DNA of 64,000 bases. Source: Rhodococcus aetherivorans (lineage in GTDB: Bacteria > Actinomycetota > Actinomycetes > Mycobacteriales > Mycobacteriaceae). The first letter of the stretch is position 1. The number at the start of each line of letters is the position of its first letter. The DNA lies in NCBI RefSeq assembly GCF_011058165.1, contig NZ_JAALEG010000005.1:62001-126000 (forward strand), read 5' to 3'. Below, in pieces: positions 25,551 through 59,479 of this stretch. The notes below the pieces were generated by a model. That model was not told where the DNA came from and made no database searches. It worked only from the letters and a program-made list of their open reading frames with translations. The position numbers and the translations under genes were made by a program.

Positions 25551-27791
25551 TCAGCGGGGGCTGAACCGCCGCAGCCGCAGGCTGTTGCTGACCACGAACA
25601 CCGAGCTGAACGCCATCGCCGCGCCGGCGATCAGCGGGTTGAGCAACCCGAGCGCCGCGAGCGGCAGGGCCGCGACGTTGTAGGCGAACGCCCAGAACAG
25701 GTTGCCCTTGATGGTGCGCAGGGTGGCGCGGGCGAGCCGGATCGCGTCGGGAGCGGCCCGCAGGTCGCCGCGCACGAGCGTCAGGTCGGAGGCCTCGATC
25801 GCGACGTCGGTGCCGGTGCCCATCGCCAGTCCGAGGTCTGCCTGGGCGAGGGCGGCCGCGTCGTTGACGCCGTCGCCGATCATGGCGACGACCCGGCCCT
25901 CGTCCTGCAGCCTCTTGACCACGTCGACCTTGTCGGCGGGCAGGACCTCGGCGATGACCTCGTCGATGCCGACCTGCTTCGCGACGGTCTCGGCGGCGCT
26001 GCGGTTGTCGCCGGTGAGCAGCACCGGCCGCAGGCCGAGTTCGCGCAGATCGGCGATCGCCGACGCGGAGGTGTCCTTGATGGTGTCCGAGACGACGACG
26101 ATCGCCCGGATGCGCCCGTCCCAGGCGATCCACACCGGTGTGCGGCCCTCGGCCTCGGCGGCCCCGGCGCTCCGTCGCAGCGATTCGGGCGCGGTCAGCG
26201 ACCACTCGTCGCGCAGCCAGGACAGCCGGCCCGCGAGCACGGCGTGTCCGTCGACGACACCGGAAACCCCTCGTCCACCGTGGTTTTCGAAGCTTTCCAC
26301 CGGCGAGAGAGCCCCGGTGGCCGCGGCCCGGTCGGCGACGGCGCGCCCGATGGGGTGCTCGGAGGCGTGCTCGAGCGACCCCGCCAGGTGCAGCGCCTCG
26401 TCCTCGGAGCCGCCGTCCGCCGCGTGCACCGCGGCCACGGCCATGCGGCCGGTGGTGACGGTGCCCGTCTTGTCGAGCACGACGGTGTCGACGCGGCGGG
26501 TGGATTCGAGGATCTGCGGTCCCTTGATCAGGATGCCGAGCTGGGCGCCGCGGCCGGTGCCGACGAGCAGTGCGGTCGGGGTCGCGAGGCCCAGCGCGCA
26601 GGGGCAGGCGATGATCAGTACTGCGACGGCAGCGGTGAACGCCGCGGTCACCGAGTTGCCCGTGAGGAGCCAGCCGGCGAGGGTGAGCAGCGACAGCCCG
26701 ATGACGATCGGGACGAACACCGCCGACACCCGGTCTGCGAGCCGCTGCACCTCGGCCTTGCCGTTCTGCGCCTCCGTCACCAGCCGCGCCATCTGAGCGA
26801 GCTGGGTGTCGGCGCCGACGCGGGTCGCGCGGACCACGAGCCGGCCGCCGGCGTTGACGGTCGCGCCGACGACGGGGTCCGCGGGCCCGACCTCGACGGG
26901 CACGGGTTCGCCGGTGAGCATCGACGCGTCGACGGCGGAGGTGCCGGAGACGACGACGCCGTCGGTGGCGATCTTCTCGCCGGGACGCACGACGAACCGG
27001 TCGCCGACGGTGAGCCGGCCGATCGGGATCCGGGTTTCGGTGTCACCGTCGCCCAGCACGGCGACGTCCTTGGCGCCCATGTCGAGCAGTGCCCGCAGGG
27101 CCGCGCCCGACTGCCGCTTGGCGCGGGCCTCGAAATAGCGCCCCGCGAGAATGAAGGTGGTGACGGCGGCGGCGACCTCGAGATAGATGTGCGGCTCGGA
27201 GCTTCCGGTGGGGAGCAGGTCGAACGTCATCCGCATCCCGGTCATGCCGGCGTGGGTGAAGAACAACGCCCACAGCGACCAGAGGTACGCGGCCGTGACG
27301 CCGACGGAGATGAGGGTGTCCATCGTGGCGGCGCCGTGGCGGGCGTTGGTCCAGGCGGCGCGGTGGAACGGCAGTGCCCCCCACACCACGACGGGGGAGG
27401 CGAGGGTCAGGGTCAGCCACTGCCAGTTGTCGAACTGCAGCGCCGGGATCATCGACAGCAGTACCACCGGCACGGTGAGGACCGCGGAGACGGTCAGGCG
27501 CTGACGCCAGGCGGCGGCCTCGTCCGGTTCGGGGGCGGCCTCGGTGGCCTCCTCGGCCCGGGGCGGGGCGGGGAGCGCGGCGGTGTAGCCGGTCGCCTCG
27601 ACCGTCGCGACGAGGTCGTCGGGGACGACCCCGTGCGCATAGGTGACCTTCGCCTTCTCCGTCGCGTAGTTGACGGTGGCGGTCACGCCGTCCATCCGGT
27701 TGAGCTTCTTCTCGATGCGCGCCGCGCAGGAGGCGCAGGTCATGCCGCCGATCGAGAGTTCTACCTCGTGCACCATCTCACCCGTGGTCAT
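25551..27791 (-). CDS. copA: Copper-exporting P1B-type ATPase
   Basis: A 746-aa heavy-metal ATPase. One N-terminal HMA domain carries GMTCASC (Cys19, Cys22). Eight membrane segments follow, with the transport motif [10 protein letters not shown] near residue 395, phosphorylation motif DKTGTVTTG, and hinge [13 protein letters not shown] with a CASC HMA is the CopA (Cu+) type. It exports Cu(I) from the cytoplasm. It is the second gene behind the copZ-like gene and its CsoR-type operator, 27 bases downstream. Confidence 0.93.
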
Positions 27792-27818: not shown

Positions 27819-28136
27819 TCACTGCGGGGCGAGGCGGTAGTCGCCGGCCTCGTCGAGCGCGGTGGCGACGGCCTCGTCGTCGATTCCGTCGACGCTGGTC
27901 ACCGTGACGGTGGAGACGCCGCCCGCGACCAGTTCGACGTGTACGTCCTCGACGCCGGGCAGGGCGCGCAGTTCCTCGGTGACGGCGCCGGCGCAGTGGC
28001 CGCAGGTCATGCCGACGACGGGGAAGGCCTGGGTGTTCATTCGGGGGTCCTCACTGCTCGGTCCGGTCGGTTCGGTGGGGTGGCTGCCGCAGCGGCAGCC
28101 GCTGGCCGTGTCGGTCAGGGGCAGGAGCCGGGTCAT
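27819..28136 (-). CDS. copZ: CopZ-like heavy-metal-associated protein, possibly with a Cys/His N-terminal extension
   Basis: The HMA domain (last 73 residues) has VVGMTCGHCAGAV with the metal-binding Cys pair of copper chaperones. A start at ATG 28038-28040 gives only this domain and has GAGG upstream. The longer start used here, ATG 28134-28136, has GAGGAG seven bases upstream and adds 32 residues including GCRCGSH, which could bind metal. Both may be used. The protein should hand Cu(I) to CopA, encoded just downstream. The promoter region holds a CsoR-like operator. Confidence 0.75.
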   Translation of the reverse strand: MTRLLPLTDTASGCRCGSHPTEPTGPSSEDPRMNTQAFPVVGMTCGHCAGAVTEELRALPGVEDVHVELVAGGVSTVTVTSVDGIDDEAVATALDEAGDYRLAPQ

Positions 28137-28169: not shown

Positions 28170-28186
28170 ATACCCCCTAGGGGTAT
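28170..28186. promoter_or_regulatory. CsoR/RicR-type copper operator upstream of copZ-copA
   Basis: ATACCCCCTAGGGGTAT matches the TACCCC/GGGGTA palindrome bound by CsoR-family copper repressors. On the minus strand its end merges with TATAAAT (28171-28165), a plausible -10, so a bound repressor would block transcription. A near-identical site lies at 35208-35224. Confidence 0.85.
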
Positions 28187-28338: not shown

Positions 28339-30720
28339 GTGAACGACGAGACTTCGGCCCGCGCCCTGTTCCCGGAATCGGATCCCACCGCGACCGCCCA
28401 CCGCGCCGCCGACTGGGCGTCGACCGCGCTGGGGCCGATCGACACCTGGCCTGCCGAACTGACGGCGGCCGTGCGGACCGTCGTTCCGTCGCGGGTGCCC
28501 ATGCTGCTGTGCTGGGGCCCCGAACTGGTGCAGATCTTCAACGACGCCTTCCGGCCCCTCCTCGGCGAGAAGTTTCCGGCGGCGGTCGCCCAGCGGGCCT
28601 CCGAGTGCTGGGGCGAGATCTGGGACTTCGTCGGCGCCCTCTTCGCCCAGGCGCAACGCGGGGAGCCGACCCTGTCGGAGCGGATGCAGTTGTTCATGCA
28701 CCGATTCGGCTACACGGAAGAGACGTACTGGACGTTCTCCTACAGCCCCGTCCGGGCCGCCGACGGCACCGTCGCGGGCATCTTCGTCGCCACCACGGAC
28801 GTCACCGAGCAGGTGCTCGCCGAGCGCCGGGCCGCCGTCCTGCGGGAACTCGGCCAGCTCTCGATGACGGAGACCGATACCGCCGACGATGCCTGCCGGG
28901 CTGCGCTCGGCCTGCTCGCCGGCCACGAGGACGATCTGCCGTTCGGCAGTGCCCACCTGTGCCGCGACGAGGTGACGGTGACGGTCGCCGAGTTCGGCAC
29001 CGCTCCCGGCGCCGCGTCGGACCTGCCGGAGGTGATCGCCCGGGTCGCCGAGTCCGGCAAGGCCGAGACCGTCGCGGACCTCGGCCGCGACGGCGACACC
29101 GCGGTGGTCCTGCCGCTCCCGGTCTCCGCTGGTGGCCCGGCCGGCTCCCTCATGCTCGGCATCAGCCGGTTCCGCGAGCTGAACGAGCAGTACCGGGTGT
29201 TCCTCGATATGGTCGCGGTCCGCGTGTCCACGGCCCTGTCCGATGCGCAGGCCTACGAGGCCGAACGCCGGCGGGCGGCCGAACTCGCCGAGCTCGACGC
29301 CGCCAAGAGCCGGTTCTTCGAGAACGTCAGCCACGAGTTCCGCACCCCGCTGACGCTGCTCCTCGGGCCGCTGCAGACCCTGCTCGACGAGCACGCCGCC
29401 GCGCTGCCACCCGCCCAGGTCGACGCCGTCGCGGCGGCGCGGCGGGCCGCCCTGCGCCTGCAGCGGCTCGTCGACATGCTGCTCGACGTTGCGCGTGGGG
29501 ACGCCGGCCGGCTCGACGCCCACACCGAGCCCACCGACATCGTCGCGGTGACGCGCGAGGCCGCCGAACTGTTCCGCGACGCCGCGGACCGCGCGGGGCT
29601 CGCGCTCCTCGTCGACGTCGACAATGTGCCGACCCGGTACGTGGCGACCGACCGGGCGATGTGGACGCACATCGTGCTGAATCTGCTGTCCAACGCGATG
29701 AAGTTCACGCCGGAGGGATCGGTCGCCGTGTCCCTGCGGGGTGACGGGGCGAACCTGGTGCTGCGTGTCGCCGACACCGGCACAGGCATCGCGGAGGCCG
29801 AGCGGGGCAAGATCTTCGACCGCTTCTACCAGATCGGCGACCGGTCCGGCCGCAGCCGCGAGGGCTCGGGCATCGGGCTGTCTCTTGTCGCGCAATTCGT
29901 TGCCGCCCTGGGTGGTTCGGTGTCCGTCGACGCCGTCGCCCCGCACGGCTCGGTGTTCACGGTGACGGTGCCCGCGGTGCCGAGCGCGCAGCCGGCACCA
30001 CGCGCCGCGGACGACGTCGTGGCGTCCGCCGGCGCGGCGTATCTGGGGGAGGCCGAGGCGTGGCGGCCCGTCGCGACCCCCGGCGCCGGACCGCGCGAGG
30101 GGCAACCGCGCCTGCTCCTCGTCGAGGACAACGCGGACATGCGTGACCATCTCGTCGACCTGCTCGCCGCGCAGGGTTGGCACGTCGACGTCACCGCCGA
30201 CGCCGAGTCCGCGCTCGAGCGGATCCGGACGGAGGTTCCCGACCTGCTCCTCAGCGACGTCATGCTGCCCGGACGTAGCGGGTTGTCGCTGCTGCAGGAC
30301 GTGCGGGGCGACGAACGGCTGGTGCGGCTGCCGGTGATCCTGCTCACGGCCCGGGCCGGATCGGAGTCCGCCGTCGAGGGGCTGCGGGCCGGTGCCGACG
30401 ACTACGTCGTCAAGCCGTTCCATCCCAGCGAGCTGATCGCCCGGGTCCGCGTGCACCTGGAGATGTCGCGGCTGCGGGAGGCGTTGCTCGCCGCCGGCGA
30501 GCGCGAGGCCGCCTCGCTCCGGACCGCCTTGGACACACGGAGTGTCACGAGCCGGGCCGTGGGCCTGCTCATGGCAGCGCACCGGGTCGACGCGGACACC
30601 GCGTTCGCGCAGCTGTCGGCGATGTCGCAGGCGACGAACGTCAAGGTCCGCACCCTCGCGGCCGAGATCGTCGAGAACTTCACGGCGTCGCTCGCCGAGC
30701 CGGGGCCGCCACAGCCGTGA
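28339..30720 (+). CDS. Hybrid sensor histidine kinase with REC and C-terminal ANTAR domain
   Basis: A 793-aa cytoplasmic multidomain protein. A PAS-like region (about 45-155, with WGPELVQIFNDAFRPLLG) and a GAF-like region (about 165-320) precede HisKA with His332 (FENVSHEFRTPL), an HATPase domain (NLLSNAMKF, VADTGTGI, GSGIGLSL) to about 550, then a receiver with Asp640 (LLSDVMLPGRSG) and Lys in DDYVVKPF. The last 75 residues (SRAVGLLMAAHRVDADTAFA onward) are an ANTAR RNA-binding domain, used for antitermination. GTG start at 28339. The fusion of kinase, receiver and ANTAR is unusual and suggests phosphorylation-controlled transcript antitermination; targets unknown. It diverges from copZ-copA. 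Confidence 0.85.
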   Translation: MNDETSARALFPESDPTATAHRAADWASTALGPIDTWPAELTAAVRTVVPSRVPMLLCWGPELVQIFNDAFRPLLGEKFPAAVAQRASECWGEIWDFVGALFAQAQRGEPTLSERMQLFMHRFGYTEETYWTFSYSPVRAADGTVAGIFVATTDVTEQVLAERRAAVLRELGQLSMTETDTADDACRAALGLLAGHEDDLPFGSAHLCRDEVTVTVAEFGTAPGAASDLPEVIARVAESGKAETVADLGRDGDTAVVLPLPVSAGGPAGSLMLGISRFRELNEQYRVFLDMVAVRVSTALSDAQAYEAERRRAAELAELDAAKSRFFENVSHEFRTPLTLLLGPLQTLLDEHAAALPPAQVDAVAAARRAALRLQRLVDMLLDVARGDAGRLDAHTEPTDIVAVTREAAELFRDAADRAGLALLVDVDNVPTRYVATDRAMWTHIVLNLLSNAMKFTPEGSVAVSLRGDGANLVLRVADTGTGIAEAERGKIFDRFYQIGDRSGRSREGSGIGLSLVAQFVAALGGSVSVDAVAPHGSVFTVTVPAVPSAQPAPRAADDVVASAGAAYLGEAEAWRPVATPGAGPREGQPRLLLVEDNADMRDHLVDLLAAQGWHVDVTADAESALERIRTEVPDLLLSDVMLPGRSGLSLLQDVRGDERLVRLPVILLTARAGSESAVEGLRAGADDYVVKPFHPSELIARVRVHLEMSRLREALLAAGEREAASLRTALDTRSVTSRAVGLLMAAHRVDADTAFAQLSAMSQATNVKVRTLAAEIVENFTASLAEPGPPQP

Positions 30721-30773
30721 CGGGGCCGCCGGCGTCGGGCCCTGCCGATTCCGGACCGGCTCGGGTCGGCCGG

Positions 30774-35207: not shown

Positions 35208-35224
35208 ATACCCCCAGGGGGTAT
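35208..35224. promoter_or_regulatory. CsoR/RicR-type copper operator upstream of the CopB-like ATPase
   Basis: ATACCCCCAGGGGGTAT differs from the copZ-copA site in two central bases. TATCAAT (35222-35228) overlaps its right end and could be the -10 on the plus strand, giving the same operator-promoter geometry as at 28170-28186. Confidence 0.85.
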
Positions 35225-35269: not shown

Positions 35270-37339
35270 ATGACAGAGCTCGCACACCACGGACACGCTG
35301 CCCACACCGCGCCGCCCGGAGCGCGCGACGCCCACCGCGCCCGGGACCGGCACGCCGGGCACGGGCCGCACGGTGAGATCTTCCGTCGCAGATTCTGGGT
35401 GAGCCTGGTCCTCGCGGTTCCGATCGTGGCGTTCAGCGCCATGTTCGCCGACCTGCTCGGCTACGCGCTGCCCGACGCCGCGTGGGCCGGATGGGTCTCG
35501 CCCGTCCTCGGCACGGTCGTGTTCGCCTACGGCGGCAGCCCCTTCCTCGTCGGCGGGTGGAACGAGCTGCGGGACCGCCGGCCCGGAATGATGCTGCTCA
35601 TCGCCATGGCCATCAGCGTCGCGTTCGCGGCGTCCTGGGTGACCACGCTCGGGCTGGGCGGGTTCGACCTCGATTTCTGGTGGGAACTGGCGCTGCTGAT
35701 CGTGATCATGCTGCTCGGGCACTGGCTCGAGATGCGGGCGCTGGGCTCGGCGTCGCGCGCGCTCGACGCCCTGGCCGCGATGCTGCCCGACACCGCCGAG
35801 AAGGTGACCGCGGACGGCGTCGTGCAGGTCGCCCTCGCCGACCTGGCCGTCGGCGACGTCGCGCTGGTGCGCGCCGGTGCGCGCGTCCCGGCCGACGGCA
35901 CGGTCGTCGACGGGCGCGCCGACGTGGACGAGTCGATGATCACCGGCGAGTCCCGCGCCGTGCCCCGCGCCGTGGGCGACACCGTCGTCGCCGGCACGGT
36001 CGCCACCGACAGTGCACTGCGCGTCCGCATCTCCGCGGTGGGGGAGGACACCGCGCTCGCCGGCATCCAGCGCATGGTCGCCGACGCGCAGGCCTCGTCC
36101 TCGCGAGCCCAGGCGCTCGCGGACCGGGCCGCCGCCTTCCTCTTCTACTTCGCCACCGTCGCCGGCGTCCTCACCTTCGCCGTGTGGACGCTGCTCGGCA
36201 ACGTCGACGAGGCCGTCGTCCGTACCGTCACGGTCCTGGTCATCGCGTGCCCGCACGCGCTGGGCCTGGCCATCCCACTCGTCATCGCCATCTCGACCGA
36301 GCGCGCCGCCCGCGCCGGCGTGCTCGTCAAGGACCGGCTGTCGCTGGAGCGGATGCGCGGCGTGGACGTCGTCCTGTTCGACAAGACCGGGACCCTGACC
36401 CAGGGGCGGCACGTCGTCACCGACGTCGTCGCCACCGCCGGCACCACCGAGGACGACCTGTTGACCCTGGCCGCCGCGGTCGAATCCGACAGCGAGCACC
36501 CCGTCGCCCGCGCCGTCGTCGCCGCCGCGGGAGGGCGAGTCATGTTGCCGACGAAGGATTTCCGCTCCCTGCCCGGCCGCGGGGTGCGGGCCGTGGTGGA
36601 CGGGGCGACCGTGTTCGTCGGCGGTCCGGCCGTGCTCGCGGACCTGCGGGCGCACGTGCCCGCCGACGTCGCGGCCGCGACCGACCGCTGGGTCGCCCGC
36701 GGGGCGTCGGTGCTGCACGTCGTGCGCGACGGCACGGTGCTGGGAGCCGTCGCGCTCGAGGACGCGGTGCGCGAGGAGTCGCGGCAGGCGATCGACGCCC
36801 TGCACGCGCGCGGGGTGAAGGTCGCCATGATCACCGGGGACGCGCGGCAGGTGGCCGACGCCGTCGCCGCCGACCTCGGTATCGACGAGGTGTTCGCGAA
36901 CGTGCTGCCCGAACACAAGGACGCGAAGGTCGCCGAGCTGCAGGCCCGCGGGCACCGCGTCGCGATGGTCGGTGACGGGGTCAACGACGCGCCGGCGCTG
37001 GCGCGGGCCGACGTCGGCATCGCGATCGGCGCGGGCACCGACGTCGCCGTCGAGTCGGCCGGCGTGGTCCTGGCCGCAGACGATCCGCGCGCCGTGCTGT
37101 CGGTGATCGCACTGTCGCGGGCGAGCTACCGCAAGATGTGGCAGAACCTGGCCTGGGCCACCGGGTACAACGTCGTCGCGGTGCCCCTCGCGGCCGGTGC
37201 GTTGGCCTTCGCCGGGGTGGTCCTGCCGCCTGCGGTGGCTGCCGTGCTCATGTCGGTCTCCACGATCGTCGTGGCACTGAACGCGCAGTTGCTGCGCCGG
37301 CTGGAGCTGGATCCGGCGAAGGTCGCAGCCCGGAGCTGA
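35270..37339 (+). CDS. copB: CPH-type (CopB-like) copper/silver P1B ATPase
   Basis: A 689-aa metal ATPase. In place of an HMA domain it has a His-rich N-terminus (HHGHAAH, then RDRHAGHGPHGE). The membrane motif is CPHALGLAIP with Cys327-Pro-His329, phosphorylation Asp371 in DKTGTLTQG and hinge GDGVNDAPAL near 568. CPH with a His-rich tail is the CopB class, proposed to export Cu(II), Cu(I) or Ag(I). Controlled by the operator 45 bases upstream; ends at a strong stem-loop. Metal specificity is inferred. Confidence 0.9.
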   Translation: MTELAHHGHAAHTAPPGARDAHRARDRHAGHGPHGEIFRRRFWVSLVLAVPIVAFSAMFADLLGYALPDAAWAGWVSPVLGTVVFAYGGSPFLVGGWNELRDRRPGMMLLIAMAISVAFAASWVTTLGLGGFDLDFWWELALLIVIMLLGHWLEMRALGSASRALDALAAMLPDTAEKVTADGVVQVALADLAVGDVALVRAGARVPADGTVVDGRADVDESMITGESRAVPRAVGDTVVAGTVATDSALRVRISAVGEDTALAGIQRMVADAQASSSRAQALADRAAAFLFYFATVAGVLTFAVWTLLGNVDEAVVRTVTVLVIACPHALGLAIPLVIAISTERAARAGVLVKDRLSLERMRGVDVVLFDKTGTLTQGRHVVTDVVATAGTTEDDLLTLAAAVESDSEHPVARAVVAAAGGRVMLPTKDFRSLPGRGVRAVVDGATVFVGGPAVLADLRAHVPADVAAATDRWVARGASVLHVVRDGTVLGAVALEDAVREESRQAIDALHARGVKVAMITGDARQVADAVAADLGIDEVFANVLPEHKDAKVAELQARGHRVAMVGDGVNDAPALARADVGIAIGAGTDVAVESAGVVLAADDPRAVLSVIALSRASYRKMWQNLAWATGYNVVAVPLAAGALAFAGVVLPPAVAAVLMSVSTIVVALNAQLLRRLELDPAKVAARS

Positions 37340-59225: not shown

Positions 59226-59270
59226 GCGGGGCGTACTTTCGGGCGTACACGAGAAAGGAGGTGGTCTGAA

Positions 59271-59306
59271 TTGAAGTATCGGACACGTGAGGTGGCTGCG
59301 CGCTAG
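59271..59306 (+). CDS. Possible 11-codon micro-ORF (MKYRTREVAAR)
   Basis: TTG at 59271 lies nine bases after a perfect AGGAGG (59256-59261), the strongest ribosome binding site in the region, and the frame closes with TAG at 59304-59306. The peptide is MKYRTREVAAR. It is 45 bases past the cydC stop. It could be a translated small peptide or a leader for an unseen RNA. No downstream plus-strand gene follows closely, which is odd for a leader. Confidence 0.45.
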   Translation: MKYRTREVAAR

Positions 59307-59382
59307 CCGCTGTCATCGACGACGGGATTGTCGACCGCTGCAGCGGCCGGCGAATACCACGCAGTCACCCGGCCCCCGAGCC

Positions 59383-59403
59383 TCCCGGTCCGTCCGACCG
59401 GGA
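59383..59403 (+). terminator. Hairpin downstream of cydC and the micro-ORF
   Basis: TCCCGGTC (59383-59390) pairs with GACCGGGA (59396-59403), 5-base loop. It may end the cyd transcript. Apart from this, the micro-ORF and the tandem repeat, the 356 bases from 59226 to 59581 show no gene. Confidence 0.5.
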
Positions 59404-59431
59404 ATCGCCGAGACGATCCGTCCCGGCGTAG

Positions 59432-59479
59432 CGCTCGGGGGCCGTTCGCGTCCGTCGCTCGGGGGCCGTTCGCGTCCGT
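59432..59479. repeat. 24-bp tandem duplication
   Basis: Two identical, directly adjacent 24-base copies at 59432-59455 and 59456-59479, beginning CGCTCGGGGGCCGTTC. Non-coding location between convergent units. Confidence 0.9.

Follow-up and report, generated by a model that had tools for sequence, protein, structure and literature searches.

The window, the whole 64,000-nucleotide stretch of DNA that was analysed, encodes a protein in which a sensor histidine kinase, a receiver and an ANTAR domain are carried on one chain. This protein is probably a two-component system contained in a single polypeptide, a soluble hybrid sensor kinase with a predicted RNA-binding output. The fusion is real and conserved and, within the literature coverage searched, undescribed. 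A full-text search of open-access papers, the coverage of which is incomplete, found no paper on a fusion of ANTAR domains with hybrid histidine kinases. Domain databases may well list the architecture.

A sequence-only reading of this DNA had proposed that kinase, receiver and ANTAR were fused in one protein, with His332 and Asp640 as the phosphosites, an ANTAR domain at residues 720-785, and a gene divergent from a copper export operon. A single 793-aa ORF encodes the protein, with copZ and copA upstream on the opposite strand (Table 1), and Pfam places the domains in the proposed order: PAS_4 (residues 118-159, E 1.8e-6), HisKA (PF00512; 322-390, E 9.4e-16), HATPase_c (440-546, E 4.5e-24), Response_reg (593-704, E 6.9e-26) and ANTAR (PF03861; 726-778, E 9.2e-16, 57.8 bits against a curated cut-off of 27.3). 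A GAF domain had no Pfam match in the window protein itself. The ANTAR segment was also recovered by an independent six-frame search of the whole genome, where it is one of seven ANTAR genes. The two phosphosites are at the right positions, and H332, E333, T336, N448, D597, D640 and K692 are invariant in 26 aligned sequences; receiver position 670 is Thr or Ser. The chain thus carries an H-box HisKA domain, the HATPase boxes and a receiver with its phosphoacceptor Asp. None of the relatives compared has lost the kinase boxes, the HExxT motif or the acid pocket of the receiver. All parts of the proposed route from sensor to RNA-binding output within one chain are present, with every catalytic residue that was checked intact. 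No transmembrane segment is evident in the domain order or the AF2 secondary structure of the 793-aa protein, so it is taken as soluble. Confidence in the full-length AF2 model is low where the domains join.

Table 1. Coordinates of the hybrid kinase gene, its domains and the neighbouring copper features (positions in the window)
Feature	Position	Strand	Basis or remark
copA-like P1B copper ATPase	25551..27791	-	Pfam, ORF
copZ-like metallochaperone, divergent neighbour	27819..28136	-	Pfam, ORF
Perfect CsoR-type palindrome ATACCCCCTAGGGGTAT	28170..28186	.	34 bp upstream of copZ start, 153 bp upstream of kinase start
Hybrid kinase gene, PAS-GAF-HisKA-HATPase-REC-ANTAR	28339..30720	+	793 aa, GTG start; 12 homologues with identical plan
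N-terminal PAS-like sensor region, residues 22-160	28402..28818	+	PAS_4 match 118-159; AF2 secondary structure
Invariant C90 codon, PAS-like region	28606-28608	+	Alignment
GAF-like region, residues 166-300	28834..29238	+	GAF_2/GAF_3 matches in homologues; AF2
Invariant C186 codon, GAF-like region	28894-28896	+	Alignment
HisKA dimerisation/phosphoacceptor domain	29302..29508	+	Pfam; alignment
His332 codon, within SHEFRTP (HExxT)	29332-29334	+	Sequence; alignment
HATPase_c catalytic domain	29656..29976	+	Pfam
Receiver domain	30115..30450	+	Pfam; alignment; model
Asp640 codon, receiver	30256-30258	+	Sequence; alignment
Helical REC-ANTAR linker, part of single long helix in model	30457..30513	+	Predicted structure
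ANTAR domain, residues 726-778	30514..30672	+	Pfam, six-frame search, sequence and structure matches
Second perfect CsoR-type palindrome ATACCCCCAGGGGGTAT	35208-35224		Precedes second heavy-metal P-type ATPase gene (35270-37339)

The C-terminal segment could instead have been an unrelated helix bundle, and both the Pfam score and the predicted structure identify it as ANTAR. The last 86 residues match PAL (6hmj, 7.6e-7) and Rv1626/PdtaR (1s8n) by sequence among solved structures. A REC-ANTAR model built from 12 sequences (mean pLDDT 91.5) shows the receiver, a long helix and two further ANTAR helices; its helices at 108-160, 164-178 and 182-198 form a three-helix ANTAR fold after the coiled-coil helix. 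The best Foldseek match of this model among solved structures is RNA-bound EutV (6ww6, E 3.8e-14, 193 columns), and free EutV and Rv1626/PdtaR (1sd5) rank third and fifth. The VIA-align matches listed for the model are receiver domains and have no bearing on the ANTAR part.

PAL, a light-gated PAS-ANTAR-LOV protein, binds RNA tightly. It is the nearest in ANTAR sequence among the solved structures and has the N-x-K-x-R signature (767, 769, 771) in common with the fused kinase, in which R734, S763, Q764, N767, K769 and R771 are invariant across a 12-sequence alignment. With the structural matches above, these features make RNA binding by the ANTAR tail likely. EutV contacts RNA through R142, K149, Y164, R168, M172, R175 and R177 (PMC8934654). 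When the contacts are placed by position from the published residue numbers, three are kept in kind (R142=R734, Y164=F756, R177=K769) and four differ (K149=V741, R168=S760, M172=Q764, R175=N767). The details of RNA binding are probably nearer to those of PAL than to those of EutV.

Twelve further genomes encode the architecture, with 48-90% identity in the 11 that were aligned. Within the genus, 11 of 18 genomes have this domain order free of insertions, and a second genus of the family adds two more. In a tree built from residues 20-710 only, with the ANTAR left out, the 13 fused proteins of the two genera form one clade (100/100 support), and the window copy clusters with the second genus, apart from its nine congeners (98/96), which suggests either two old subfamilies or transfer. 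Between the two closest orthologues the ANTAR has the lowest dN/dS of all segments (0.031; HisKA has 0.072 and the protein as a whole 0.20), an approximate value given the short domain and its one amino-acid-changing substitution. Across all 13 fused proteins the ANTAR identity is 68%, near that of the receiver (69%) and the PAS region (71%). As judged from these comparisons, the fusion is old and under purifying selection.

Of 394 genomes of the class (123 genera), 63 encode a relative of the kinase module (E 1e-90 or better), in a search that scored two candidates per genome and could therefore miss an ANTAR fusion beyond the clade. Outside the fused clade most of these matches end at about residue 714, after which the relatives checked by Pfam have a SpoIIE phosphatase, a second HATPase domain or both. 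A broad scan of contigs gave mostly generic hybrid kinases. When named fused homologues were sought on plasmids 54 records matched, and the 20 listed all end before the ANTAR. The fusion likely arose from an actinobacterial PAS-GAF-HK-REC module that acquired ANTAR where many of its relatives have a phosphatase output. In a second plan the hybrid kinase is longer, apparently by PAS/GAF insertion, and the ANTAR stands at its very end; this plan is found in Terrabacter (L034, 5815-9042; HK-REC-PAS, then ANTAR by Pfam) and in L156 (1080-4259), where the ANTAR is at residues 1001-1055, beyond an additional stretch after the kinase-receiver part. As these two form their own clade (99/99) in the tree without the ANTAR, the domain was probably joined to such kinases at least twice.

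From this layout the following mechanism can be proposed. A signal at the PAS/GAF region would set the activity of the HisKA-type kinase, His332 would be phosphorylated and the phosphate would then pass to Asp640 of the attached receiver; the HExxT motif suggests that the kinase can also remove phosphate. The state of the receiver would be passed along the long helix to the three-helix ANTAR domain, exposing or arranging it so that hairpin RNAs from other parts of the genome are bound or released, and this would alter translation or transcript elongation. In EutV phosphate drives dimerisation. Because HisKA kinases are already dimers, phosphate in the fused kinase probably re-arranges a standing ANTAR pair instead.

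A lead to the signal comes from two cysteines of the sensor, C90 (PAS region) and C186 (GAF region). Both are invariant in 13 of 13 fused proteins, and among 13 other relatives compared C90 is found in one and C186 in two. In PdtaS, cysteines of the GAF domain serve to sense copper and NO (PMC8131098), and for this reason thiol sensing through C90 and C186 is a lead for the fused kinase and not a finding. We tentatively put forward, as possible but doubtful, that the lineage exchanged the phosphatase output of a hybrid kinase for an ANTAR and acquired the two cysteines; a redox, NO or metal signal would then be turned into RNA binding within one protein, which would control a hairpin-RNA regulon in trans.

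The earlier expectation of transcription antitermination through two-hexaloop targets in 5' leaders is not supported at the nearby genes. No tandem (dual) hexaloop RNA (A1, G4) was found in the leaders of the kinase gene itself, of cop or of purS. Dual hexaloops number nine and seven on the two strands of the window, not above shuffled sequences (mean 17.8 per strand), and the Rfam scan of the window matched no ANTAR RNA family. Autoregulation through a hexaloop in the kinase's own leader was considered and rejected (4 hairpins in 13 leaders, 5.0 expected), as was a 5-bp hexaloop hairpin in the purS leader (30750-30765), which is broken in the aligned sequence of the close relative G003. In actinobacteria an ANTAR target and the ribosome-binding site often overlap (PMC8164766), which points to translation. 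Two other features of the window were observed. The only Rfam match was Ms_IGR-5, an actinobacterial sRNA (59247-59450, 128.9 bits, full length), and the minus strand at 91-180 contains a tandem repeat of ~26 bp, GCAACAGGCTGCGCTTCATGAGCCCG, the copies of which happen to fold as hexaloop-like hairpins.

The position of the gene had implied a link to copper, and in the corresponding explanation the kinase would respond to copper and control the divergent copZ-copA operon, by antitermination or in some other way. The divergent adjacency in the window genome (G000) and G003, the two clade-specific cysteines of the sensor and the inhibition by copper of PdtaS, the soluble kinase of another ANTAR system (PMC8131098), speak for such control. 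However, the adjacency is confined to these two genomes. In five others (G007, G009, G012, G013 and G016) copA adjoins purS with no kinase there, and two of these (G009 and G016) lack the kinase in the whole genome. In nine congeners the kinase lies within a galactan/cell-wall locus (GlfT2-like, glycosyltransferase and ABC exporter genes), and in G022 it is near genes for glucose-6-phosphate dehydrogenase and a Na/H exchanger. The gene therefore occupies at least three distinct neighbourhoods, as expected of a self-contained regulator, and its linkage to copper genes is not conserved. The copZ leader is also without a hexaloop hairpin, and perfect CsoR-type palindromes precede both copZ and the second P-type ATPase gene, where the search expected 0.10 matches by chance. 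The palindrome ATACCCCCTAGGGGTAT is kept in G003, and the genome has three CsoR-family genes. Together, the palindromes and these genes suggest that the cop genes are under ordinary DNA-level (CsoR-type) control; ATACCCCCTAGGGGTAT may also affect the kinase promoter. Copper control by the kinase is thus improbable. The simplest reading of the gene orders is that, in the line of G000 and G003, the kinase gene entered a copA-purS neighbourhood and came to lie between the two genes; its place beside the copper genes looks like coincidence. Separately, the second P-type ATPase gene is preceded by a His- and Met-rich DUF305-like ORF.

Three further explanations concern where the phosphate goes and whether the chain is genuine. 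Many hybrid kinases pass phosphate through HPt proteins (PMC12471899), and the loss of several EutV RNA contacts would suit a receiver that feeds such a separate phosphorelay, with the ANTAR as only a dimerisation helper or a relic. This is unlikely: no other segment is as constrained as the ANTAR when the two closest orthologues are compared, and six of its residues are invariant in the 12-sequence alignment. That the kinase acts mainly on separate ANTAR regulators such as PdtaR is very improbable: the genome does encode PdtaR (L001), PdtaS and five other ANTAR genes, but PdtaR has a dedicated kinase in PdtaS, the receiver of the fused kinase is intact, and a receiver on the same chain usually wins over free ones. 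The chance that the fusion is an artefact of assembly or of a frameshift is negligible, this being already refuted by the identical plan in a single frame in 12 other genomes. Close to PdtaR (~10 kb, on the same contig, G000:C131; L001, L002) is a sensor-ANTAR protein, GAF-like by eye, with an ANTAR signature (SQ..NVK.R) that is nearly that of the fused kinase.

The favoured reading thus remains the one-polypeptide sensor kinase with an RNA-binding output. Only a few kinds of response regulator bind RNA, and as a rule the kinase is a separate protein. The single-chain version would be a simple system for examining how receiver phosphorylation switches RNA binding by ANTAR when the kinase is already dimeric, and it offers a module for signal-to-RNA control. 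The exchange of a SpoIIE phosphatase for an ANTAR output shows how a sensor module can be re-wired.

The sequence-only reading had also stated that ANTAR regulators normally receive phosphate from a separate kinase. This is correct for the EutW/EutV and PdtaS/PdtaR type, but many, including NasR and PAL, need no kinase. EutW/EutV and PdtaS/PdtaR likewise consist of a kinase, a receiver and an ANTAR output, and the REC-ANTAR half of the fused protein folds like EutV and Rv1626; however, these systems are two proteins and the window protein is one. Its kinase is of the HisKA type, with no Pfam match to the GAF_PdtaS or HisKA_2 domains of the PdtaS type, and the genome keeps separate PdtaS and PdtaR besides it. 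The one-component ANTAR proteins (NasR, PAL and GAF-ANTAR) also join a sensor to an ANTAR in one chain, but without a kinase or receiver, so that coupling is direct and not via phosphate. The actinobacterial PAS-GAF-HK-REC-SpoIIE hybrid kinases are ~42-46% identical to the fused kinase over the N-terminal 700 residues; where the fused kinase has ANTAR they have a SpoIIE-type phosphatase, in many cases accompanied by a second HATPase domain. The Bacteroides HTCS carry a sensor kinase, a receiver and a nucleic-acid-binding output in one polypeptide (PMC11253607), as does the window protein, but they have membrane sensors and an AraC-type DNA-binding output, whereas the window protein looks soluble and has ANTAR at its C-terminus. 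By analogy, the fused kinase is best read as an RNA-level counterpart of the Bacteroides HTCS, with similar logic in a different family.
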